Origin: Paraburkholderia sp. PGU19
GTDB lineage: Bacteria; Pseudomonadota; Gammaproteobacteria; Burkholderiales; Burkholderiaceae
Reading direction: 5' to 3'
DNA length: 64,000 bases
Assembly: GCF_013426915.1 (NCBI RefSeq)
Contig: NZ_AP023182.1
Location: 558,001 to 622,000, forward strand
Shown: piece by piece, positions 39,962 to 52,038 of the stretch
How the letters are laid out: the number at the start of each line of letters is the position of its first letter
How positions within the stretch are numbered: position 1 is the stretch's first letter
The notes under the pieces: generated by a model
Seen by the model: only the letters and a program-made list of their open reading frames with translations
Databases searched by the model: none
What the model was told of the DNA's origin: nothing
Program-made: the position numbers and the translations under genes

Positions 39962-40061
39962 CGCAGTATCTCCGGTCATCGCGTCCTTGGCTGAGCGTAA
40001 GGTCTGGTGTGCCGGTAAAATAGGGGCTCACCTGTCCATCCAGAGACTGACTAACGTCCGC

Positions 40062-40805
40062 ATGACTGTCGACCTGCACGCGCGCCATTCACTGCTGTCT
40101 AAGCCGCTTGCCACGCCGTTGCCGCTTGAGGTCCGGCCCGGAGGTGCGGTTCTTGAGTGTGAGCGCGGCGGCCGCCGATATGTCGTCTACTGCGGGCACC
40201 ATGAAAATTCATCGCCCCATGCTTCGGCCCGCTTACTGCGAAAGAAGCTGCGTGATGCGCGCGAGCAGGATGAGACGAGCTGCGAGGCAGCGCCTCTTTC
40301 GGGCCAAAGTCTGTCAGAGCAACACAGTGCATGGTCCTCTGTGACCGAGGGGGAAGATTGCGGAGACGGCGAGTCCGTCGCCGGTTGCGCGCGGTTCGGG
40401 TACCAGCTCGTCGCGTATGCTGGTCGCTCACCGGTGGGCTACTGCACCTTCGTAGTCCGTATCGAGGACGCCACCACCGGACAGCGTCCATCGATTGAAA
40501 TTGAGGTGCTTGAAATCTGGGTCATGCCTCAGCATCGCGGCGTTGGTGTCGGGGCCGCACTCGCCGAGTCCGTTGCTCAGCTGGCGGTAGCTGGGCTCCT
40601 TGAACTCGAGTTCCGTCTTTCGCACCAGCGCAAGGCGACGCACTTCAGTATTGCCGTTTTAGCGGATATTCACTCGTCATCTGGCGCGCACTTCCTTCAC
40701 CTTACCGTCAACTTCCTTCGCGCGAAGATTGACGAACTTGGCGTCCTGTTCTCGAGCGGGCTTCAGCACGTACTCTTTGACGACATTGAGCTGGAGCTAC
40801 GCTAG
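40062..40805 (+). CDS. GNAT-type acetyltransferase-like protein
   Basis: About 247 residues. The N-terminal ~110 residues are of unknown type ('RPGGAVLECERGGRRYVVYC'). The C-terminal part holds a GNAT fold with 'IEVLEIWVMPQHRGVGVGAA', including the acetyl-CoA loop RGVGVG. The final ~80 residues ('LRAKIDELGVLFSSGLQHVL') are atypical. The start is uncertain; the frame is open upstream to 39987. The substrate is unknown. Confidence 0.6.
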   Translation: MTVDLHARHSLLSKPLATPLPLEVRPGGAVLECERGGRRYVVYCGHHENSSPHASARLLRKKLRDAREQDETSCEAAPLSGQSLSEQHSAWSSVTEGEDCGDGESVAGCARFGYQLVAYAGRSPVGYCTFVVRIEDATTGQRPSIEIEVLEIWVMPQHRGVGVGAALAESVAQLAVAGLLELEFRLSHQRKATHFSIAVLADIHSSSGAHFLHLTVNFLRAKIDELGVLFSSGLQHVLFDDIELELR

Positions 40806-40878
40806 TTCCGGTGCCCCTTCTTTGCGCGGATTCCGCCTGGCTATACGAGCCACACAGGAGCCACAAAGGGAGGTTGTC

Positions 40879-41310
40879 GTGATTGAACAGATTCTCGCGT
40901 ATTGCGGTCCGTACCAGGCGGCCAATATTGACGACCTCCGCGGCCATAAAGGCGAGGGGTTCGAGTGCGTGCTGCTCAAGGGTGAGCGTGTTATTGGCAC
41001 CGGCACCAGATGGGCAAACGACGAGCCGATTAGACTCGATATCCCGACAGAAAACCGGGATGACCTGCTCGCGCACGCGAAGGCGAAACACCCGGACGTG
41101 CAATACGAGCCGGAAGGAATCTTCATGGGCAAGCTTTGGCATTTCGTTGAGGTAAGCGGAAGATGTCGTAACGTCTCTCTTTTTTCTGACTTCATAGACT
41201 TAGAGAGCCAAAAACGCGCAAAGCTCACATCTTCATATTCGTTGCGTAACAGACCAGCCGCCGGCAGAAGTGGCGGCCGCCGAACATGGCCGGTGCATCA
41301 TCCCCTTTAA
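40879..41310 (+). CDS. Hypothetical protein running into a SRAP relic
   Basis: GTG 40879, with GGGAGG upstream, opens a ~95-residue domain ('IEQILAYCGPYQAANIDDLR', then 'DIPTENRDDLLAHAKAKHPD'). I do not recognise it. After 'LWHFVEVSGRC' the frame loses protein character and overlaps, in another phase, the SRAP fragment. The original gene probably ended near 41170 and was fused by deletion. Confidence 0.4.
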   Translation: MIEQILAYCGPYQAANIDDLRGHKGEGFECVLLKGERVIGTGTRWANDEPIRLDIPTENRDDLLAHAKAKHPDVQYEPEGIFMGKLWHFVEVSGRCRNVSLFSDFIDLESQKRAKLTSSYSLRNRPAAGRSGGRRTWPVHHPL

Positions 41311-41422
41311 GCCGGAAAGCGTTGACACGTGGCTAAATTCGAATGGGTCGGACCTGGCGGCGCAGTATGCGATACTGGACGACAGAGACCGGCCATACTA
41401 CGCGCATCGGCTGGCTGCGTGA
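41246..41422 (+). pseudogene. SRAP (YedK/HMCES-like) peptidase C-terminal fragment
   Basis: Frame 2 reads 'VTDQPPAEVAAAEHGRCIIP', then 'FKPESVDTWLNSNGSDLAAQ' and 'YAILDDRDRPYYAHRLAA' before a TGA. This resembles the C-terminal end of SOS-response-associated peptidases that shield abasic sites. The catalytic Cys2 end is missing. Confidence 0.55.
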
Positions 41423-41782
41423 CCGCTCGCAATCATCGGCAGCTGATGAATGGACCTTTGGATTCAACCCTGCGCGCGCTGTGCTGATCTCCACGGGAAG
41501 GTGGCCGCTGAGCCTCCGTACCAAGACCTCACGCTCAACGGTGCTGGCGCGGCAAAGGATGCGCGAGTGGAAGAGCACCGCACCTGTGTTCGATGCCGCG
41601 GGGGGTTGCGAGAATTCTTGCCGGACCCCCGACGCGGTAGATTTGGATGTTACTGAAAGCCGGCCAGCATTAACGCAACCCTTGCTCGAACTTGTGAGAG
41701 CGCGACTGCACTCAGGATTTTCTCAAATCAGAAGGAGGCTGCGATGGGTGCAGTGTGGGAGAATCGTGTGATGGCGCCATGA
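41423..41782. other. Degenerate stretch, nothing recognised
   Basis: About 360 bases between two relics. An open frame 41343-41771 (+) exists but contains no family signature apart from its overlap with the SRAP fragment. Confidence 0.35.
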
Positions 41783-42019
41783 CGTTCAACGAGGAAAACG
41801 CAGTGCTTTGAGGCATTTCCTTACTCCATAACCTGCGCCTTTCTTGGGAAGGAAGTGCCATCTGCGAAGGAAAATCGAACTCAGCGCCGAAGAGTTCTTG
41901 AAGATGCGGGAATTGAAACAACGCCGCCGAGGTCTATCGACGAGGCAGCACTGTGCGCTTTGACAGCAAGTTTCCTACTTGAAGGGTGTGTCGTTGCGTA
42001 CGGCGATGAGCTAGGGTAG
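41783..42019 (+). pseudogene. C-terminal fragment, possibly DUF429-like
   Basis: An uninterrupted 78-codon frame without a start codon reads 'CFEAFPYSITCAFLGKEVPS', 'RTQRRRVLEDAGIETTPP' and 'DEAALCALTASFLLEG', ending 'VAYGDELG'. The order 'E-xxP ... K ... RRxxLExAGI ... DAALCALTA' resembles the end of DUF429 (RNase-H-like) proteins. The identification is tentative. Confidence 0.35.
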
Positions 42020-42113
42020 CCGACGCGCCAAGTATCCGCGGTTTCAGCACACCTTGGAGTGCACGCACAAGCGACCGCGGTCCAATCACGGCAATAACGT
42101 TGTAGGGGAACTC

Positions 42114-42788
42114 GTGCGTCTGAGACGACATCTAGCATTGCTGTTGCCATTGGTAGCTTTAGGCTCATCTGGAGCATGGGCGCGCGATATTCAATGTGCG
42201 ACCACCCGACAACCGGCTGAGCGCGTCATATGCGACCACGCCATCCTGAACAATGAATACGACGATATCTTCGCGCAGCAGCAGGCTCTGCTGAGAAGTG
42301 GGAAGCTCTCGCCCGAACAACTCGCTCAGTGGAGACAATCGCGGAGCACCTGCACCGACGTCCACTGCATCGACAGCGTATTTGCTCGCTGGAAGGCGAT
42401 GGCCAAGTCTGTCGAAACCAATTCTCGCACTGCAGTGGCTCCGGCTATAGCTTCCGTGACTGCTATGGCTCCGGTAGGACCCACTTCCGACGTAGTTCCC
42501 GAACCAAGTCCACAGGCATCCCCGACCTCGGAAGCATCCCTCGTGCAGCGGGGGAGTGCCGCTGGCATCGCGCTGCCGCAGCCTGTCGCTGGTCATGCCT
42601 CTGTGCCAGCGGTCGCTTCTGCTGCTTTCAGCGTGAGCAATCCGCGCGGCGCGACTGGCATGAGCGTCGGCCTGATGGCGGTCGTGTTTGTCGCGATTGG
42701 ATGCAGCGTACTCTTCTATCGCCGAAGGAGGAGCGGTGGAAGCACCGGGGAAGCACCAAGAAGTGTTCGCAGCAGGGACAAGCCCTGA
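42114..42788 (+). CDS. LprI-like N-terminal domain protein with C-terminal membrane anchor
   Basis: A 224-residue protein from GTG 42114 (AGGGGA upstream). A signal peptide ('LRRHLALLLPLVALGSSGAWA') is followed by a lysozyme-inhibitor LprI-type domain with four Cys ('IQCATTRQPAERVICDHA ... STCTDVHCID'). Then come a Pro/Ser/Val-rich linker and a C-terminal helix ('GMSVGLMAVVFVAIGCSVLF') with an Arg-rich end. It would face the periplasm and be tethered to the inner membrane. LprI family members inhibit lysozyme; activity here is an inference. Confidence 0.7.
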   Translation: MRLRRHLALLLPLVALGSSGAWARDIQCATTRQPAERVICDHAILNNEYDDIFAQQQALLRSGKLSPEQLAQWRQSRSTCTDVHCIDSVFARWKAMAKSVETNSRTAVAPAIASVTAMAPVGPTSDVVPEPSPQASPTSEASLVQRGSAAGIALPQPVAGHASVPAVASAAFSVSNPRGATGMSVGLMAVVFVAIGCSVLFYRRRRSGGSTGEAPRSVRSRDKP

Positions 42789-42804
42789 GCGGACGGTGCG
42801 GTAG

Positions 42805-43147
42805 GACCTTGCTTATGCTGCCGTCCGGTACGACTACCTGAAGGCAGAAGCCGCTCGAGCTCTTACACTTCGCGTGTTCAACATGCTCGCGGCGAGCGGA
42901 ATCCTTTTCATTGAGATTTTTCTGACGGGCATCCCGGACGCCGGCTTCATGGAAGCGGCAATGGATTGGTAGCTTATTTACCGGGGAGAAAAACAAATCC
43001 AGGCAATCCTGTCCGGTATCGTCGACTCGGACATCGCTTCAATACAGCAATATCGTGACCTCGAGAACAACATTACTTTTCTCGAAGTGTGGAGGAATTT
43101 ACGGCAGGCTAACTTGTCAACGGAAAGCGGTGGTTCGGCCTATAAAA
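42805..43147 (+). other. Possible relic: open frame with an internal TAG
   Basis: After a TAG at 42802 the frame reads 'DLAYAAVRYDYLKAEAARAL' and 'RVFNMLAASGILFIEIFLTG' to a TAG at 42970-42972. It then continues in the same phase with 'GEKQIQAILSGIVDSDIASI' and 'LENNITFLEVWRNLRQ'. The sequence has protein character and relatively low GC. No start codon or known family was found, so I treat it as a decayed gene of unknown origin. Confidence 0.3.
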
Positions 43148-43169
43148 AGGCCCGCTCGAAAGCGGGCCT
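43148..43169 (-). terminator. Rho-independent terminator of the HU gene
   Basis: AGGCCCGCT (43148-43156) pairs perfectly with AGCGGGCCT (43161-43169) across CGAA. On the minus strand it is followed by a run of five T (43148-43144). It lies about 20 bases past the HU stop codon. Confidence 0.9.
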
Positions 43170-43190
43170 CTACTATTCGCGACGCGGTGC

Positions 43191-43610
43191 TCAGGCAGCT
43201 GCATCCTTCAGCTTCTTCAGCGCACGCACCTTCAGGCGTACGGTCGCCGGCTTGGCGTCAAACCAGCGCTCTTCACCCGTGAACGGGTCCTTGCCGAAAC
43301 GCTTCTTTTTCGCCGGAACTTGCTGGACGCCAATCTTGAGCAGGCCCGACAGCGTGAATTCGCCGGCCCCCTTCTTGTGAACAGAACCCAGGATGGTGTC
43401 TTCCAGAGCCGCAAGGATGGCCTTCGCTTGCTTCGGCTCAACACCGGCCTGAGTTGCCACGTGAGCAGCAAGTGAGGTCTTCGTGAACGTATCTTTCAGC
43501 GGTTTGAGCGTTGTTACTGTTGCTGCAGCCTTCTTCGTCGGAGCAGCTTTGGGAGCTGCCGATTTGGTTGCAGGCTTTTTTGTTGCGGGCTTCGCGGCTT
43601 TTGTTGCCAT
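43191..43610 (-). CDS. HU-family DNA-binding protein with Lys/Ala/Pro N-terminal tail
   Basis: A 139-residue protein. Residues 1-35 form a basic tail ('ATKAAKPATKKPATKSAAPK'). Residues ~40-139 form an HU/IHF fold ('TKTSLAAHVATQAGVEPKQA', 'HKKGAGEFTLSGLLKIGVQQ'), with the DNA-clamping arm 'GKDPFTGEERWFDAKPATVR'. Such tailed HU proteins are typical of Burkholderiales. The gene is monocistronic with its own terminator. The basic tail may add non-specific DNA contacts. Confidence 0.92.
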   Translation of the reverse strand: MATKAAKPATKKPATKSAAPKAAPTKKAAATVTTLKPLKDTFTKTSLAAHVATQAGVEPKQAKAILAALEDTILGSVHKKGAGEFTLSGLLKIGVQQVPAKKKRFGKDPFTGEERWFDAKPATVRLKVRALKKLKDAAA

Positions 43611-43921
43611 TTGCGTCCTCTTTCTGGATTAGGAGAGTCGCTTAAGACGAAACACCCCTGAGCACTGAGCGCTCGGCACATGCACCGTCGTAAGCTGTGG
43701 CTAGCGTAGCAACGGCCTATTTGCAATGCAAGCAGAATAGCTCCTGAAACTGGGGATTTTGATGAGATTTTGGTCCTCGCCTATTGATTGCTTGCGACAG
43801 AAAGGAGCCGTGTGGCGGTGCGTACTGACGACCGATGAGTTCGAGTAGTAGGTGGGTTTCTCGCTACGGACAGGAATTCGATGTAGAGGCCGGCCCGATT
43901 GTCGACGCCTACGTGGTGTTA
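43611..43921. other. Upstream region of the HU gene
   Basis: About 310 bases between the HU start and the next minus-strand gene's stop. 43730-43800 is AT-rich and is the likely HU promoter area. No gene is visible. Confidence 0.4.
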
Positions 43922-44251
43922 TTAACTCTCCGCGCCGACTTGGCGAGCCAGTCTGAGCGCTTGCTGGGGCAAAATCACATAGAGTCCGACGATAACGCCT
44001 GCAAGGAGATTTAATGCAAACGCGAGAATCTGATGGTCATGCTGAATGGAATGGACGACAAGCGCGACAGGCGCAGTAAACAAGACGGACCATCCGAAGC
44101 TGGAAAGCCCTAGCATCGTTGCGCCCCATAGACGAAGTTTGGCGGGGGTCGGGAGTCCATGAGATGCGAAGCCTCGCCTAACCATGTAGCCAACGATAGG
44201 TAGCATCAGTGCAAACGTCGCTAACGTGACAGCAAGTAGTGGCATAAGCAT
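43922..44251 (-). CDS. Small hypothetical membrane protein
   Basis: About 110 residues from ATG 44251. Three hydrophobic helices: 'MLMPLLAVTLATFALMLPIV', 'FGWSVLFTAPVALVVHS' and 'ILAFALNLLAGVIVGLYVIL'. The start is uncertain because the frame remains open upstream to 44422, without protein character. No named family recognised. The 44252-44539 interval is intergenic and should hold the promoters of this gene and of the divergent cyclase gene. Confidence 0.5.
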   Translation of the reverse strand: MLMPLLAVTLATFALMLPIVGYMVRRGFASHGLPTPAKLRLWGATMLGLSSFGWSVLFTAPVALVVHSIQHDHQILAFALNLLAGVIVGLYVILPQQALRLARQVGAES

Positions 44252-44729
44252 GGCCGTTTTCAGCGGCTGGCCATGATGCCACCCAGACGGGCACCGCCAC
44301 GAGCATTTGTCTCCACACGCAAGACCACCAGACAGCCAGCCGCTTGCCGAACCCCATTGGCGGATACAGCAAAAAACAATGGGGGCTTCGTACGCATGCG
44401 TGTCGGCCGACACTTGGCTCAAACGTTAAACCAATCCAATATGGATTGTCTCCTGCAGCGGGCTCAAGTTATGGGATTTTCGGCCGTTATGCCGTACTTC
44501 CGAGAGACTCACTGTCAAGAAAAAAATAAGGCGGCACAGATGGCTGAAGTAGAGGTACGTAAGGTCGCCAACAAAGCTGGCGTCGTCAAATCGAATCTTG
44601 AAGCCAATGTGCTACGACAGATGCTTTGCCGCGGCGAACTCTGGACACTAATCCGCGTTGGCCTTGTTGGCCTAGTACAACATCCCGCAAATATCTTGAA
44701 TAATTAAACGATTTGGCTATTATGCCGGG

Positions 44730-45812
44730 ATGAGTCGAGGCCGTCACGCAACGTCAGTGAAGCTGACGAAGAAAGAAAAAGAGAAACTCCTGTCGCTGAT
44801 CGCACAGAAGACGGCCCCGCAGCGGGATGTGATGCGGGCTCGGATTGCGTTGTGGGCACATGAGGGACACTCGAATACCGTGATTGCGCGAGAGCTCGGT
44901 GTATCGGTGCAGACGGTCAGCACGTGGCGCAAGCGCATTGCGCGGCAAGGCGCACAGGGCATTCGAGAAGGTGAGCGCAGTGGCCGTCCGCCGCGCATTG
45001 CGCAGGAAACACGACTGCAATTGATTGCGTTGGCATGCGAGGCGCAGGAACCGCAGGGGCGGGTCACGCCGACGCTCGACGAGATTGTGGCGCGCGCAAT
45101 CGAGCGCGGCATCGTCGAACAGATCAGCCGTAGCCATGTTCAGCGGATCTTGCAGGCCGGCGACGTGCGCCCGCACCGGGTCCAGCAATGGCTACACAGT
45201 CCCGACCCCGCCTTTCGGGAGAAGGTCAATGTGATTTGCAAGCTGTATCGCAAGGCGCCCAAAAGCGCGGTGGTGCTCAGCATCGACGAGAAGACCGGAA
45301 TTCAGGCCATCGAGCGCAAGCATTCGGGGCGTGCGCCGGCGCCGGGACGGTTGCGTCGTCGGGAGTTTGAATATATCCGCCATGGCACCCAGGCGTTGAT
45401 TGCCGCGCTGGATGTGCATACCGGAAAGGTGCTGGCAGAGTGCCGCGAGCGGCGTACCCAGGACGATCTGGTAGCCTTCATGGAGCGCGTGGCTGCTGCG
45501 TACCCGGGCAAGCAGGTGCACGTGGTTTGGGACAACCTGAACACGCATCGCGCCCAGGCCGTCTGGCAGGCGTTCAATGCGCGACACGGCAGGCGGTTTC
45601 ACTTCCACTTCACGCCGTTGCACGCGAGTTGGGTCAATCAGATCGAACTATGGTTTGCGCGCTACACGCGCCGGGTATTGCGCCATGCCAGCCATACCAG
45701 CACCGCGCACCTGCGCGAGCGCACCGGGCAGTTTGTCCGTGAGCATAATCAGGCAGCGCGGCCCTTCAAATGGAGTTTCCGGGGCTATCCGCTACAAACC
45801 GGCGCAACGTAA
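44730..45812 (+). CDS. IS630-family transposase
   Basis: A 360-residue DDE transposase that appears intact. The N-terminal helix-turn-helix region ('HEGHSNTVIARELGVSVQTV') and a second winged-helix region precede the catalytic domain. Its acidic residues lie in 'VVLSIDEKTGIQAIE' (D near 186), 'HVVWDNLNTHRAQ' (D near 267) and 'ASWVNQIELWFARY' (E near 307), as usual for IS630/Tc1 enzymes. Confidence 0.92.
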   Translation: MSRGRHATSVKLTKKEKEKLLSLIAQKTAPQRDVMRARIALWAHEGHSNTVIARELGVSVQTVSTWRKRIARQGAQGIREGERSGRPPRIAQETRLQLIALACEAQEPQGRVTPTLDEIVARAIERGIVEQISRSHVQRILQAGDVRPHRVQQWLHSPDPAFREKVNVICKLYRKAPKSAVVLSIDEKTGIQAIERKHSGRAPAPGRLRRREFEYIRHGTQALIAALDVHTGKVLAECRERRTQDDLVAFMERVAAAYPGKQVHVVWDNLNTHRAQAVWQAFNARHGRRFHFHFTPLHASWVNQIELWFARYTRRVLRHASHTSTAHLRERTGQFVREHNQAARPFKWSFRGYPLQTGAT

Positions 45813-45826
45813 TCGAGGGGACCGAC

Positions 45827-46126
45827 GTGCCAGCCATACCCACCAAACATTACGCGGCCGAACTTCAGCGTCAACTACGCACCTTGCTCGGCCATGAGCA
45901 AATCGTTACGCAAGCCTACGGGCATCACCTGCTGATCAAACGTCTGGACGATGAGGAACCCACTGTTGTGGCGCGCCTCACCGGGCTCGGCCGCAATCGT
46001 TATGGCGCCGCCTTCCGTACCCACAACGGACGATGGGAACCGCTGCCCGGAACCGGTTCGCTCGAGGAGATGGCCGACGTCGTCGTCACGCTCCTGCACC
46101 CGTATTTACAGCCAGATAATTATTAA
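45827..46126 (+). CDS. Accessory protein encoded inside the IS630 element
   Basis: A 99-residue open frame that starts with GTG 45827, six bases after GAGGGG and 14 bases after the transposase stop, and ends 22 bases before the right inverted end. It reads 'KHYAAELQRQLRTLLGHEQI', 'YGHHLLIKRLDDEEPTVVAR' and 'WEPLPGTGSLEEMADVVVTL'. Composition and codon use fit a real protein. I do not recognise a family. Most IS630 elements encode only a transposase, so this passenger is unusual. Confidence 0.6.
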   Translation: MPAIPTKHYAAELQRQLRTLLGHEQIVTQAYGHHLLIKRLDDEEPTVVARLTGLGRNRYGAAFRTHNGRWEPLPGTGSLEEMADVVVTLLHPYLQPDNY

Positions 46127-46658
46127 AGCCAATTACGGGATGTTGTACTAGTAGCCGCCTTCGTGCTTCTCGTCATCAGTGGGCAGCTGAAGACAATGGC
46201 AGGCGAGCTTGTGGCCATATGGATTGTCGACGGCTCTCTCCTTGGCCACATGATGTGGCTCCAGCGACGCTACAAGCCTGTTTTTCTTGTCGGTGCAGCC
46301 ATCGGGCTCGTGCTTGGAAACTTGATGGGCGACGAGACCTTCTACGTCGCGTTCTCGTTTACCGCGGCAGGAATGGTGGAAACATGCGCTGCGGCACTTA
46401 TGCTGCCGAGTGTGAAATCGGCCAAAGGGCTCCTGCAGCCTAAAGTATTTGTCCGGTTCGTAGTGGGTCCCTGCATAGTTGCATCGATGCTTTCTGGCGT
46501 GGTTGCCGTTATCCTGCTTCAAGGAATTTTTACCACCCACCCACCCGTTTTCATCGTTTTCGAATTGGGTGATATCCGACGCTTTGGGCTTCCTGATATT
46601 TACGCCAGTGACGCTTGTCATGCTTTCGGGGGAGTGGAGGGCCACCAAAGTAGCCGCT

Positions 46659-47867
46659 CTAAGCTGTCTGCACATTTCTGTGCACATCTCGCTTTTTCTG
46701 CTTCACCGAGACCGGTTTCACTGATGCCGAGGCGCCAGCCAGAGCCTTCCTCTCCACAGACTGCAACGCCAGAGCTTGGCGCCGAATGTTGATGGCCGCG
46801 TTCAGGTCGCGGTTCATCTTTAAACCGCAGCCGCACGACAGCACGCGGTCGCGCAGCGTGATTTCGTGAATCGTCCCGCATCCCGAACACGTCTTGCTGC
46901 TCGGATAAAAGCGGTCGATCACGATCACTTGTGCGCCGGTCATTACGGCCTTGTATTCCAGTTGACGACGGAATTCGGAGAACCCGGCATCGGCGATCGA
47001 GCGCGCCAGAGAGCCATTGCGCAGCATCCCCGACACGTTCAAATCCTCAATGCCGATCGTTGAGTAGTTCGTCGCGAGCGTCGTCGTCAGCTTGTGCAAA
47101 GCATCCTTGCGGACGTTTGCGATACGCAAGTGCAGCCGGGCAAGCTTGGCTTTCGCTTTGGCCCGGTTGGCACTTCCCTTCTTTTTGCGCGCGAGCGATT
47201 GCGACAGGCGCACGATGCGCTTGTGCCCGGCGCGGTGCGGCTTCAACGCAGGCTCGGTCGTGCCATCACTGAAGGTCGCGAGCGTCGTAACGCCGAGATC
47301 GACGCCGACGGCGCCACGGTCCTGCTTCGCAGTCAGGCGGTCTTCCGTCTCGACGGCCAGCGCGACATACCAACCATCGGCCATGCGGCTCACCGTCGCC
47401 GACTTGACACGGCCCGCGAAGCGCAACGCCTCACGCATGCGAACGACGCCACAGCGCGGCAGCTTGACCACCTTGCCGGTCACCTCGACTGCGTGGCTCG
47501 TCGCATCCGCCGGCCCGTTGTCGGCACGGAACGAGTCGCGGATGCCCTTACGCTTGAAGCGCGGGTAGCCGGGCTTCTGGCCGAGCTTCACGCGCCTGAA
47601 AAAGTGCTCGAACGCGAGTCCGACGTTCTTGATCGCGGTCTGAGGTGCGCATTTCGTCACCTCAGCCATCCAGGGGAATTCGGCCGCCTTGATCGCGTTC
47701 AGTTGTTTGCGGAGCGCCGCCTCATCCGGCTTGCCGCCGGCCTCATACTGCCGCTTCCATTCCGCCAACGCCCAGTTATAGGCGAACCGGGACACGCCAC
47801 AGGCGCGTGCGAAATACACGCCTTGCGTGGCGGTCGGGTCGAGGCGGATTCTGTGGACGCGGATCAT
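46659..47867 (-). CDS. tnpB: TnpB, RNA-guided nuclease of an IS607 element
   Basis: A 402-residue TnpB that appears intact. The N-terminal part ('HRIRLDPTATQGVYFARACG') precedes the split RuvC domain: D in 'AVGVDLGVTTLATFSDG' near 188, E in 'STIGIEDLNVSGML' near 272, D in 'MNRDLNAAINI' near 353. A zinc-finger 'CSGCGTIH ... CGCG' lies near 326. TnpB proteins use an RNA (omega/reRNA) from the 3' end of the element to cut the empty donor site and so help keep the element. The ATG 47867 overlaps the tnpA stop. Confidence 0.9.
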   Translation of the reverse strand: MIRVHRIRLDPTATQGVYFARACGVSRFAYNWALAEWKRQYEAGGKPDEAALRKQLNAIKAAEFPWMAEVTKCAPQTAIKNVGLAFEHFFRRVKLGQKPGYPRFKRKGIRDSFRADNGPADATSHAVEVTGKVVKLPRCGVVRMREALRFAGRVKSATVSRMADGWYVALAVETEDRLTAKQDRGAVGVDLGVTTLATFSDGTTEPALKPHRAGHKRIVRLSQSLARKKKGSANRAKAKAKLARLHLRIANVRKDALHKLTTTLATNYSTIGIEDLNVSGMLRNGSLARSIADAGFSEFRRQLEYKAVMTGAQVIVIDRFYPSSKTCSGCGTIHEITLRDRVLSCGCGLKMNRDLNAAINIRRQALALQSVERKALAGASASVKPVSVKQKKRDVHRNVQTA

Positions 47868-48469
47868 CTGGCGGCTTGCACGAGCGCGTCGAGCAGTTGC
47901 CTGTTCTTCTTGCTGCGCGAGCCGTACAGGCGCGCCGAAAAGACGGTGATGATTTCCAGCACGTCCCTGGCGAGTTCTTCCTCGAACGAGGGCTGATCGC
48001 CCTTGTGGATGATGACGATTTCGATGTTCTGCGCCGCGCACATCGCGAACACCAATTCGGAGCCGAAGCGCAGGAGCCGATCCTTGTGCGTGATGACGAG
48101 GCGCTTCATCTGCTTGCGCAGAATCATTTCGAGCAGGCGGTTGAGGCCCTTCTTGTGATAGTTCATGCCGCTACCGAGATCCTTGATGACCTCGCAGCGC
48201 CACCCCTTCGCGGCGCAATAGCTCTCCAGCATCGCATGCTGGCGATCGAGATCCGCTTTCTGGTCGTGCGACGAGACTCGCGCGTAGCAGACCGTCGGTG
48301 CATCCTCATTGCCGAGACCCAACAGATCGGAGACAGCGTAATAGCGTGTGCCGCCCGCCGTCTTGCGAGCGGGCACCAGTTCGCCAGTCTCCTCCCACTT
48401 CCGCAGGGTGGAGATTGCGACGCCCAACATCGCCGCCGCTTCACCAATCTTTACAAGTCTCCTTTCCAT
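47864..48469 (-). CDS. tnpA: IS607-family serine recombinase (tnpA)
   Basis: A 201-residue small serine transposase. An N-terminal MerR-like helix-turn-helix ('LVKIGEAAAMLGVAISTLRK') binds DNA. The catalytic resolvase domain has the nucleophile Ser in 'CYARVSSHDQKADLDRQ' and the arginine-rich 'ITHKDRLLRFG'. This arrangement (HTH in front of the recombinase domain) is the hallmark of IS607. The start ATG 48469 is followed directly by the HTH and preceded by an AAGGAG. Confidence 0.9.
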   Translation of the reverse strand: MERRLVKIGEAAAMLGVAISTLRKWEETGELVPARKTAGGTRYYAVSDLLGLGNEDAPTVCYARVSSHDQKADLDRQHAMLESYCAAKGWRCEVIKDLGSGMNYHKKGLNRLLEMILRKQMKRLVITHKDRLLRFGSELVFAMCAAQNIEIVIIHKGDQPSFEEELARDVLEIITVFSARLYGSRSKKNRQLLDALVQAAR

Positions 48470-49013
48470 AACAACAGATTCTAGCAGATTCTGTAAGAAA
48501 ACCATGACTCTGCCCCACACCCTCTGGGTGTCGTTACTCTGAGTATCGGGGTAGCGCACGGCGAAATGCGACGACCATCGGACGCGGCCGAACTGTTCGA
48601 ATTGGCGGACTCAGCTCTATATATGGCAAAACGGATGGGGCGAAACCGCGTGGGTAGAGTGCAAGACGCGATAGCCACAGGCGAATCAGCGCCGTCCCGC
48701 CCCGTGGCTTCGGTTGCTCGTGGCGTCCTCTGAAGGTTAACTGCCGATTTCCAAGGTTGTCAGTGTCATGTCGACTTCGCCCGTACGCGTAACGATGAAC
48801 AAGGGATACCCGTGCGGCACCTGAGCAGCAGGGCAGGCTTTTTGAACACCCGGATGCCAGGCATTCACGTAGGTCGTTCTTCTGCGCAGAAAATGACGGC
48901 CTCACCTCGGAATTCGAGCATGTGACAGTCAAGGAGCGCCGCTCGCCGCGGAGCAGCTGCCGGCGGCAATGATGGAAAATCCCGATTCACGGTCGATGCG
49001 AGATGAAGATAAT

Positions 49014-49032
49014 AACGAGAATCGCTTTTATT
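49014..49032 (+). promoter_or_regulatory. Probable Fur box
   Basis: AACGAGAATCGCTTTTATT matches 14 of 19 positions of the common form AATGAGAATCATTATCATT. It lies 26 bases upstream of an iron-uptake gene pair, which supports iron repression by Fur. The rest of the upstream interval 48734-49013 holds no gene. Confidence 0.65.
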
Positions 49033-49058
49033 AACTCATCTCATTACCCTGACCCCAC

Positions 49059-49397
49059 ATGAAACTCGTCCGTACAGTATCCAGCATTACTTTGGCGCTG
49101 CTCACCGCATCTGCATCTCAGGCATATGCCGCCGACGAGTCCTACAGCCTGACCTTGAAGGACCACAAGTTTTCGCCGGCTGAACTTACCATCCCGGCCG
49201 GCAAGAAAGTGAAGGTGACCGTCAAGAACCTCGATGCGACGCCTGCAGAGTTTGAGAGCGATGATTTCAAGGCCGAAAAGGTCATTCCCGCTGGCAAGCA
49301 GGCGGACATTTTCATCGGACCGCTGAAAGCTGGCACGTACGAGTTCCATGACGAATATCACGAAGCCGAATCCAAGACCCATCTGACGGTCAAGTAA
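49059..49397 (+). CDS. Periplasmic cupredoxin-domain protein of an iron uptake system (FtrB-like)
   Basis: A 112-residue secreted protein: signal peptide about 1-24 (cleavage after 'ASQAYAA'), then a single cupredoxin-like beta-sandwich ('LKDHKFSPAELTIPAGKKVK', 'GPLKAGTYEFHDEYHEA'). Such domains accompany FTR1 permeases in EfeO/FtrB systems, where they bind or oxidise Fe2+ in the periplasm. It is 12 bases before the FTR1 gene and behind a Fur box. No P19 (FtrA) or polyferredoxin (FtrD) gene is seen next to it. Confidence 0.82.
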   Translation: MKLVRTVSSITLALLTASASQAYAADESYSLTLKDHKFSPAELTIPAGKKVKVTVKNLDATPAEFESDDFKAEKVIPAGKQADIFIGPLKAGTYEFHDEYHEAESKTHLTVK

Positions 49398-49409
49398 CGG
49401 AACAACACC

Positions 49410-50246
49410 ATGCTTTCCACCGCCCTTATCGTTTTCCGCGAAGTGCTTGAAGCCGCACTCGTCGTGTCCATTGTTCTCGCGGCAACGGAGGGTGTCGCTA
49501 ACCGGGGCTGGTGGGTTGGTGGTGGACTGGCGGGCGGCGTCATTGGCGCCGGCCTCATTGCCGTCTTCGCGGACGTCATTTCGTCGTTGGCCTCCGGTAT
49601 GGGACAGGAGGTCTTCAACGCGTGTGTCATGTTCGTCGCGGTTGTCATGCTGGCGTGGCACAGCATCTGGATGGGCAAGCATAGTCGACAAATGGCGCAG
49701 CAGATTTCTGCGGTTGGCAAGGCCGTCGCAGCAGGCAGCAGACCGCTTACCGGCCTCGCGATTGTCGTGGGTGTCGCAGTGCTGCGCGAGGGTTCGGAGG
49801 CAGTCCTGTTCCTGTATGGCATCGCGGCTGGCGACCCGGGGCAGACGCCTCAGATGATTGCCGGCGGGTTGCTGGGCATCTTCGGCGGTGTCGGCCTTGG
49901 TGCCGCCATGTATGCGGGCCTTCTGCAGATTCCGCTGAAGCGCCTTTTTGCCGTGACCAACGCGATGATTATCCTGCTTGCGGCGGGGATGGCCAGCCAG
50001 GGCATCGGTTTTCTGGTTTCGGCTGGAATTTTGCCCTCGTGGGGAGACAGCGTTTGGGACACGTCGTGGCTTCTCAAGGAATCGAGCATAGTCGGCAAAA
50101 TGCTGCACACGCTCGTCGGCTACACCGCGCGTCCGGCTGGCATTCAGATTGCGGCATACTGCGCCACGCTTATCACTATCGTGCTATTGGCGCGGACTGT
50201 CGGACGACCAGGGGCGCCTATTGGTCAGCCTCGACAACCCGCGTAA
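49410..50246 (+). CDS. FTR1-family iron permease (FtrC/EfeU-like)
   Basis: A 278-residue, seven-helix inner-membrane permease. Both REXXE iron-binding motifs are present: 'REVLE' near residue 10 and 'REGSE' near 127. It imports iron with help from the upstream cupredoxin protein. Two genes in one operon under a probable Fur box indicate an iron-starvation response. No downstream ferredoxin gene is visible, so the operon is shorter than the four-gene ftrABCD type. Confidence 0.9.
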   Translation: MLSTALIVFREVLEAALVVSIVLAATEGVANRGWWVGGGLAGGVIGAGLIAVFADVISSLASGMGQEVFNACVMFVAVVMLAWHSIWMGKHSRQMAQQISAVGKAVAAGSRPLTGLAIVVGVAVLREGSEAVLFLYGIAAGDPGQTPQMIAGGLLGIFGGVGLGAAMYAGLLQIPLKRLFAVTNAMIILLAAGMASQGIGFLVSAGILPSWGDSVWDTSWLLKESSIVGKMLHTLVGYTARPAGIQIAAYCATLITIVLLARTVGRPGAPIGQPRQPA

Positions 50247-50385
50247 GCCTCGCTCCGTTGCGCCGAATGTTGTCAGGCCAACACATGGCTGGAATAACGC
50301 TGCCCGGGGGCCGTTTAGCTGAACAGCGTCGCGAAGACTCGATGCTCGAGTCTGCGGGGCGGTTAGCCGGTGGAGCGGGCGTGCC

Positions 50386-50736
50386 ATGAGGAAATCAATC
50401 CAGCAGGACGACACCAGGTTGCTGGCCGCGTTGAGGGCTGAAGCGGGCAAATTCAGCGATATCAGCGAGCTCAGAATGTCTGGTTGCACAGGGTTCTCTG
50501 TGCACGGGAGAATAACGGCCTGTGCCTGTGGGAATCTGATTGCCCTCAGGCTTCCCGAACTCTCGGTCACCGCACTGCTGCAAACGCCCGGCTGCAGATT
50601 GTTCCAGCCATACGGACGGACGTCATCGCGGCACTGGCTGGCCTTTGCGGCAACCAGCCCAGCCTTCAATACGCTTGACGGATTATTTGAGGAAGCCGTA
50701 GCGTTTTCGCACGAATCACCAGGCGGCGACCGCTGA
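50386..50736 (+). CDS. Small protein, possibly TfoX-N-like
   Basis: A 116-residue protein. The core reads 'MSGCTGFSVHGRITACACGN', 'LIALRLPE', 'TPGCRLFQPYGRTSSRHWLA'. The order of a short beta hairpin, 'LxLP' and 'F..YG.....W' resembles TfoX N-terminal/YjbR-like domains. The assignment is weak. It lies 139 bases after the FTR1 gene; the 50737-50965 interval downstream is empty. Confidence 0.4.
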   Translation: MRKSIQQDDTRLLAALRAEAGKFSDISELRMSGCTGFSVHGRITACACGNLIALRLPELSVTALLQTPGCRLFQPYGRTSSRHWLAFAATSPAFNTLDGLFEEAVAFSHESPGGDR

Positions 50737-50965
50737 TGAATCGAATTGGGGTGTTGACGGGGCCGCACACCATAACGGCGCTGGCTGTCCGGGCCCACCT
50801 CAAGTCAATGCCATACCTGTGAGCCACCTTTCCCCTGCCGGCGCAGGGACTGCTTGCAACCATTGCCCGTGGGTAGGCGACCGAAAGCACAGTCCTCCTT
50901 GTACCTGGACCAGCGGAATCCGCGTCTGATTGTGTTCAGAGCGACGTTGTGAGGGCCGTTACCCG

Positions 50966-51667
50966 TCAGTTCATTCTTGCCCCATCGTCTCGTGCAGCAG
51001 CGCCAGCGCTCGCAGGGTAGAGTGAGGTGGCTGCCGATGCTGGCCTCAAAAAGGAGAGCAGCATCTCGACCTGCATCGCGGACACTGCCTCGATGGCAGA
51101 TGGCGCCGAGTAGTCCCGCCCGACAAACGCCTTCAGGGTGAACCGGTTGGAAACCACGTAATAGCCCATGGCGACCATGGTCACGTAGAAATCCAGCGCG
51201 TCTACCTCGGCTCGGAATTCCCCGGCAGCTGCGCCGCGCGACAGGGTTGCGCTCAACAGGCTAATCAACGGCGAAATGGCCTCTCGCAGTTTCGCCGAGC
51301 GCTCGAGATATTGCCCTTCGTGCAGATTTTCGTTGTTGATGAGGTTCAGCCACCGGGGGTTCGCCCGAAGGTAATCCCAAATGGAGCGCGCGAGCGCCCG
51401 AATGGCGTCTGCTGGTGGCAGCCCCGACAGGTCCAGACTTACCTCATGATTCGCGAACTCGACGTACATGGCCTCGAGGACGGCGACGTACAGACCTTCC
51501 TTGCTTTCGAAGTAGTAATAAAGCATCCGCTCGTTCGTGTCGGCAGCGGAGGCAATCGCGTCGACGCGCGCCCCGGCGAGCCCGTGCGCTGAGAACTGTT
51601 GCGTCGCCGCGTCCAGAATGCGTCGGCGCGTGCCCTCTGGGTCTCTTTTCACTTTGTGTTCGTTCAT
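50966..51667 (-). CDS. TetR-family transcriptional regulator
   Basis: About 233 residues from ATG 51667 (GGAG 12 bases upstream). The N-terminal HTH ('RRRILDAATQQFSAHGLAGA', then 'TNERMLYYYFESKEGLYVAV') is typical. The rest is the helical TetR ligand domain ('ARSIWDYLRANPRWLNLINN'). It is divergent from a small gene at 51781 and may regulate it. The ligand is unknown. An alternative start lies at 51682. Confidence 0.88.
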   Translation of the reverse strand: MNEHKVKRDPEGTRRRILDAATQQFSAHGLAGARVDAIASAADTNERMLYYYFESKEGLYVAVLEAMYVEFANHEVSLDLSGLPPADAIRALARSIWDYLRANPRWLNLINNENLHEGQYLERSAKLREAISPLISLLSATLSRGAAAGEFRAEVDALDFYVTMVAMGYYVVSNRFTLKAFVGRDYSAPSAIEAVSAMQVEMLLSFLRPASAATSLYPASAGAAARDDGARMN

Positions 51668-51780
51668 TGTCGGCTGCTCCATCTTTGCAGTGGAAAGCTT
51701 TGGTGACCCCGCCATTATGCGCGTCTTCCGCCGTCGATTTCCATGGACGCTACAATGTGGCCTTCGAGGAACGAGCTCCA

Positions 51781-52038
51781 ATGGACAAACGAAAATACGT
51801 TAACCACGCAGACGCGGTCTTCACGGTGTTCGAGATGCTGCGCAAGGAGCTTGCGGCAGGGTCTGATGACTCGCTCGTGCTGAGCCGGTTGCATGAGATT
51901 GCTTCGCTTCCGGCGGCTGACTTCTTCGCCGCGCTTGGTGACCTGGCAACAGGCCTGCCTGCGTATGCTGACCCATCAGACGTCCTGTCACGCTGCACTC
52001 CGCTGCCGAGCACACTCGCACAGCCGTTGGCACGCTGA
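51781..52038 (+). CDS. Small hypothetical protein
   Basis: An 85-residue protein with a helical centre ('ADAVFTVFEMLRKELAAGSD'; 'LHEIASLPAADFFAALGDLA'). It starts 113 bases from the divergent TetR gene. No known family. It ends just before an IS630 element, so its 3' region may have been separated from former neighbours. Confidence 0.45.
   Translation: MDKRKYVNHADAVFTVFEMLRKELAAGSDDSLVLSRLHEIASLPAADFFAALGDLATGLPAYADPSDVLSRCTPLPSTLAQPLAR

Follow-up and report, generated by a model that had tools for sequence, protein, structure and literature searches.

Diguanylate cyclases of the kind treated here are membrane-bound enzymes that synthesize the signal molecule c-di-GMP. The cyclases closest to the gene described here are uninterrupted proteins of MASE1-PAS-GGDEF architecture; those examined in full comprise 631 and 651 residues, and Pfam matches in three orthologues place MASE1 at residues 46–316, PAS at about 331–443 and GGDEF at 463–624. 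The two nearest orthologues, encoded by genome G160 (contig C4; L058 9841–11796) and by plasmid pmHSR1_P of Paraburkholderia hospita mHSR1 (524553–526505), are both 651 residues long, show MASE1, PAS and a full GGDEF domain all above the Pfam cut-offs, and have GGEEF at residue 544. Two families of mobile elements also concern us: the IS630 (Tc1/mariner-like) elements of Burkholderiales, with a DDE_3 transposase, short inverted repeats and a TA on both sides in a CTAG context, and the IS607 family, which combines a serine transposase bearing an N-terminal MerR-type domain with TnpB and, according to PMC6188088, inserts at (G)GG without target duplication. Here we analyse a stretch of 64,000 nucleotides from the soil bacterium Paraburkholderia sp. 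PGU19 (contig NZ_AP023182.1, positions 558,001 to 622,000; hereafter the window), which holds a cyclase gene that agrees with its G160 and P. hospita counterparts in the order of its parts and in residue matches but differs from them in lacking residues 208–577, in being frameshifted, in harbouring two elements and in having a divergent N-terminus. This is very probably a defunct MASE1-PAS-GGDEF diguanylate cyclase gene, lying on a 1.44-Mb replicon and marked by an IS630 insertion, a frameshift, a 1108-bp deletion, a clean IS607 insertion and a mosaic front end.

Read along the plus strand, the locus consists of a 45-codon open stretch starting at an ATG, an IS630-type element, a MASE1 remnant, an IS607-type element and the end of a GGDEF domain (Table 1). 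Pfam recognizes MASE1 in two frames after the IS630-family element, at 46151–46549 (E 2.8e-4) and 46542–46652 (E 8e-4), both under the curated cut-off; the parts of piece 2 before and after the change of frame are referred to below as pieces 2a and 2b. The piece following the IS607-type element matches the end of the GGDEF profile (positions 123–161 of 161, i.e., 39 positions; E 1e-5), above the cut-off, in agreement with the initial annotation, which had recognized GGDEF C-terminal sequence there.

Table 1. Features of the decayed cyclase gene and its inserted elements (window positions)
Feature	Positions	Strand	Description
Piece 1	44540..44674	+	N-terminal 45 codons, of a divergent lineage by identity; length and register of orthologue residues 1–45
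Piece 2	46151..46640	+	MASE1 remnant, orthologue residues 46–207, frameshifted; from Pfam and orthologue alignment
Piece 3, start	46641..46655	+	Late-GGDEF sequence left of the IS607-type element, ending in the CC target core
Piece 3, main part	48523..48733	+	Last GGDEF residues and C-terminal tail (TLSIGVA...LYMAKRMGRNRV...); from Pfam and orthologue identity
Deletion junction	46639..46641	+	1108 bp, orthologue residues about 208–577; 2-bp GG microhomology; from both orthologues
IS630-family element	44675..46148	+	Ends GTACAACATCCCG...CGGGATGTTGTAC; TA at 44673–44674 and 46149–46150, CTAG context
IS630 transposase	44730..45812	+	Open reading frame of 360 residues; DDE_3 (E 2e-24); HTH domains in the element
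IS630 second open reading frame	45827..46126	+	About 99 residues from a GTG
IS607-type element	46654..48522	-	tnpA (serine transposase) and tnpB, CC/GG core; limits from copies L002–L006, uncertain by about 2 bases
tnpB	46659..48041	-	Open reading frame as listed; true start probably later

Orthologues were sought in 144 genomes of the genus, including that of PGU19 itself, with matches accepted at E 1e-60 and identity measured to the protein of genome G025. Thirty of the 144 genomes were matched: ten of them carry an uninterrupted orthologue (54–100% identity, no internal stops, 634–739 amino acids between stops), and the 20 others yielded matches of 39–44% identity alone, the cut for orthology being placed in the gap between 54% and 44%. 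The intact copies considered here are those of these genomes and of the named plasmid record of P. hospita mHSR1. The G025 orthologue served as the first reference; at 66% identity over piece 2a, it was replaced by those of G160 and P. hospita.

The pieces were compared with 17 loci, which represent ten distinct genes by score, some having been fetched twice. In 15 of them, the matches to pieces 2a, 2b and 3 follow one another in order and share a frame, the two exceptions (L056 and L057) being a paralogue of 42% identity. Weak matches to piece 1 (E 0.3 to 2e-9) lie directly upstream, in that same frame, at 11 of the loci; five loci give no match to it, and in L056 the match lies elsewhere. 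The best orthologue, that of G160 (L034), is identical to the window at 97% of amino acids in piece 2a, 100% in 2b and 91% in piece 3 (65 residues; 88% over 68), and the corresponding values for P. hospita mHSR1 are 95%, 100% and 85% (68 residues). At the DNA level, alignments of 499 columns give piece 2 an identity of 95% with G160 and of 93% with P. hospita. A single intact protein is thus the homologue of the pieces, with their order and register preserved, as befits a gene remnant. The initial annotation had proposed a single MASE1-GGDEF gene, expecting one protein to match all the pieces in order; this holds for pieces 2 and 3, and extends to piece 1 in the 11 loci on the strength of position and register.

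As for the catalytic part, the deleted stretch takes in the end of MASE1 (its last third or so), the whole of PAS and GGDEF to past the GGEEF at residue 544, so that the GG(D/E)EF active site is gone. The remnant, therefore, presumably cannot be an active cyclase, and, as far as the sequence tells, the loss of function of this gene is clear. The initial annotation was right that the GGDEF core had been lost between pieces 2 and 3, although the loss is wider than it supposed, running from about residue 208 to 577.

That annotation had also set the deletion between pieces directly flanking the IS607-type element, and had run the remnant on to 46658. Both points fail at base resolution, since the deletion and the IS607 target can be resolved base by base against two agreeing orthologues (G160 and P. 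hospita). The MASE1 remnant stops at 46640, before the element begins, and the 15 bp to the element's left are late-GGDEF sequence: the orthologues read ...TTGGGCCACCGAGGTAGCCCTCTGGGTG... immediately ahead of piece 3, and the window has GGGCCACCAAAGTAGCC to the left of the element and CCCTCTGGGTG to its right. Of the 15 bases at 46639–46653, 13 are the same as those that directly precede the 48520 side in the orthologue. We accordingly dropped the idea of an IS607-bounded deletion: with 15 late-GGDEF bases on the left, the element is a clean insertion at CC and the deletion is separate from it. The deletion ends 13–15 bp left of the element, with GG common to both deletion ends, and presumably arose by a microhomology-type event. 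The target of the element itself was a CC (GG) in the late part of GGDEF, and nothing outside the core was duplicated.

Two ways of tying the deletion to the IS607-type element were nonetheless weighed. The first is that the element itself made the deletion, its ends being joined to two CC sites, or two copies recombining within the gene. The distance of 13–15 bp between element and deletion and the position of both element borders on CC speak for it, but the 15 intervening bases belong to the sequence on the right of the deletion, no deletion border coincides with an element end, and three further copies of 99% identity were inserted cleanly; we consider it extremely improbable. These copies were recovered by a search of the PGU19 genome that scored 40 out of 100 first-look candidates, and their sites are uninterrupted in relatives. 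The empty site of L002 is seen in G160 and G094, with flank matches overlapping by 4 bases; that of L004 in 11 of 15 genomes, with an overlap of 3 bases in nine and the flanks one base apart in two; and that of L003 in 5 of 15 genomes, with an overlap of 2–3 bases. L005 is an 82% copy. We also observed a 45-bp remnant of the same element, L006 (G000:C5:445353–445397), which retains the tnpA-side end alone.

The second would have the deletion seeded by TnpB: the element was excised from a full-length gene, TnpB, with the flank beside the tnpB end as its guide, cut the empty site about 15–16 bp from the target-adjacent motif (TAM), and faulty repair removed 1.1 kb on this side. The deletion indeed lies on the tnpB (guide) side, and its distance of 13–15 bp from the insertion point can be set beside reported cuts at 15–21 bp from the TAM for ISDra2 TnpB (PMC8612924) and mainly at 16 nt (non-target strand) and 22 nt (target strand) for an IS607 TnpB (PMC11061315). 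On the element strand, the other flank and the core together give GAGGG, one of two TAMs named in PMC11061315; however, those TAMs belong to another group of IS607 TnpBs, and other copies of the present element have other bases before GGG. By Pfam, the element encodes Resolvase and MerR domains and an OrfB_IS605/Cas12f1-like_TNB protein, and the tnpB product matched 16 solved chains at E <=0.001, TnpBs among them. Aligned with a solved TnpB-type nuclease, it has the D, E and D residues that we take to be those of the RuvC motifs. Against seeding by TnpB stand the fact that it is a single case, the need for the element to re-insert or be copied at the same site, the finding that none of the three other copies tested shows a deletion, and the lack of any Rfam family at the tnpB end (the search of 44400–48800 returned no family up to E 0.1). 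Deletion seeded by TnpB is thus very unlikely, and a deletion independent of a clean IS607 insertion remains the preferred account. In its MerR and Resolvase TnpA, its TnpB and its GG/CC insertion without duplication, the element shows no notable difference from the IS607 family.

At the other end of the gene, the IS630-family element sits after codon 45. The frame had been held to run across it (GLVGL, then VAAFV), which is borne out: piece 1 ends at orthologue residue 45, piece 2 begins at 46, and the G160 orthologue reads uninterrupted across the site. The presence of two different elements in one gene, as first annotated, likewise stands, given the DDE_3 and HTH domains of the one and the Resolvase, MerR and TnpB domains of the other. 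The two sides of the IS630 site, nevertheless, are unequal in their divergence. Piece 1 is only 40% identical to G160 and 42% to P. hospita in amino acids (61% and 59% in DNA), against 89% (94% in DNA) between those two orthologues over the same part, whereas over the next 125 residues the window is 95–97% identical to both. In the comparison pair L022/L023, that next part is 96% identical and the first 45 residues 87%. Relative to G160, 52 differences fall within the 135 bases to the left of the IS630-family element; the 375 bases to its right have 13, and the first 20 of these have none. The region upstream of the ATG is also divergent (70% to G160 over 147 columns). Further upstream, at 44257–44457, the window has about 180 bp extra with respect to G160, between two matching blocks whose spacing in L058 is about 25 bp (9732 and 9757).

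Since the 40–42% of piece 1 contrasts with the 95–97% of piece 2a, the front end appears to derive from another lineage. Judged from these alignments, the gene is a mosaic, with the lineage switch of its front end at or next to the IS630-family element. Homologous recombination with a different lineage of this gene family, within or next to the conserved VAAFVLLVISGQLKTMAGE stretch, would have supplied the front end. Alternatively, the pieces could belong to different genes joined by rearrangement, as might be suggested by the low identity of piece 1 to the very orthologues that match piece 2a so closely, and by a region that is non-syntenic with those orthologues. Yet pieces 1 and 2, when placed on the orthologue, abut exactly, at residues 45 and 46. 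The orthologue that matches piece 2 best is also the best match of piece 3, which largely refutes the idea for both, and a mosaic of homologous alleles is a better account of piece 1 than an unrelated gene would be. The chance that different genes were joined is, in our estimate, exceedingly small. The picture of one gene broken by insertion is accurate as to the insertions, but overlooked both the recombination seen in the lineage of piece 1 and the frameshift.

That frameshift in piece 2 lies in an ACCC-type short tandem run at about 46532–46546, which is a net four bases longer than in both orthologues and past which MASE1 continues in another frame according to Pfam. The four-base change and the deletion sum to a multiple of three, and piece 3 is consequently back in the frame of piece 2a; this has a one-in-three chance and needs no explanation.

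Several observations weigh against regarding all of this as the remains of a single mosaic gene with the lesions listed. Taken alone, piece 1 gives weak matches (best E 2e-9, to G160), and its 45 residues have no Pfam match at E 1, so that its membership in the gene rests on register and position. The DNA of piece 3 is 84–85% identical to both orthologues, which are 94% identical to each other there, and this divergence may point to more than one exchange. The four-base change may be a sequencing error. Finally, the site is syntenic with neither orthologue: outside the gene, matches are fragments only, about 25 kb off on the same G160 contig and more than 400 kb off on the P. hospita plasmid.

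An uninterrupted orthologue at the syntenic site, which the initial annotation had proposed to look for, was accordingly not found, the intact G160 and P. hospita genes sitting in other surroundings. The PGU19 genome totals 11.2 Mb in five contigs, of which the one bearing the window (C4) is the 1.44-Mb replicon. By plasmid matches the window is nearest to Paraburkholderia and close to P. hospita (two pieces of one P. hospita record, 94%); a plasmid megablast with 40000–52000 returned 10 records, none with at least 80% coverage of the query. The G160 cyclase gene adjoins a histidine-kinase-like gene (HATPase_c, RsbRD_N). We observed its PGU19 counterpart on another contig (L134; G000:C3:1814262–1815683), about 4 kb from a paralogous MASE1-PAS-GGDEF gene. 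Its place near the paralogue on a different contig shows that the region has been rearranged.

The paralogue itself (L056, around G000:C3:1819632–1820987) and its relative in G094 (L057, G094:C4) both read as frameshifted before GGEEF, in different places. They are 91% identical in DNA, and both frameshift sites fall at G-runs, so that slippage, phase variation or assembly error are all possible causes. If the frameshift of the paralogue is real, both genes of this kind found in the PGU19 genome are broken.

How, then, might the lesions have accumulated? Once the gene was dispensable, they would have been gathered one by one: an allele exchange, a first lesion that abolished function, and drift thereafter. 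The initial annotation had taken the loss of the cyclase as tolerated or selected. That it was tolerated follows from the loss; selection for it is conjectural. Positive selection for the loss (e.g., for lower cyclic di-GMP), which is compatible with the decay described above, might be read into the several lesions in one gene and into the apparent frameshifts of the second MASE1-PAS-GGDEF gene and of its G094 relative, in different places. However, a dead gene collects lesions without selection, and the two shifts in the paralogues, at G-runs, are possible assembly errors; positive selection is unlikely. On this gene family, the passages of PMC6335245 go no further than a remark in general terms on redundancy, with a reference. 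In short, gene decay of an ordinary sort has here left a history that can be read unusually well.

The IS630-family element has the DDE transposase, terminal inverted repeats and TA duplication of its family, and resembles the Burkholderiales members outlined above also in its CTAG context. Other copies occur in G020 (95%) and G094 (79%, five places listed), with matches spanning 44672 to 46152. It differs from the IS630 family in having a second small open reading frame after the transposase. In each of the five other loci compared, this frame likewise comes after the transposase (Cupriavidus, Caballeronia, Variovorax, G020 and G094; 48–95% identical), although in the Variovorax locus it is preceded by the transposase C-terminal end alone. 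It was also matched in six plasmid records, and no Pfam family was found for it when searched as a longer, 118-residue reading. On this comparative evidence, the second open reading frame is a conserved IS630 passenger gene.

Taken as gene decay, the locus provides a base-level example of how a signalling gene is lost on a large secondary replicon. It also serves as a warning that two insertion elements within one gene need not account for its missing part. Were the deletion seeded by TnpB after all, IS607/TnpB elements would erode a gene on their guide side, adding a mutational cost to the RNA-guided retention of transposons. In that event, there should be a general excess of one-sided deletions starting 13–20 bp beyond the tnpB end, which could be counted across genomes.

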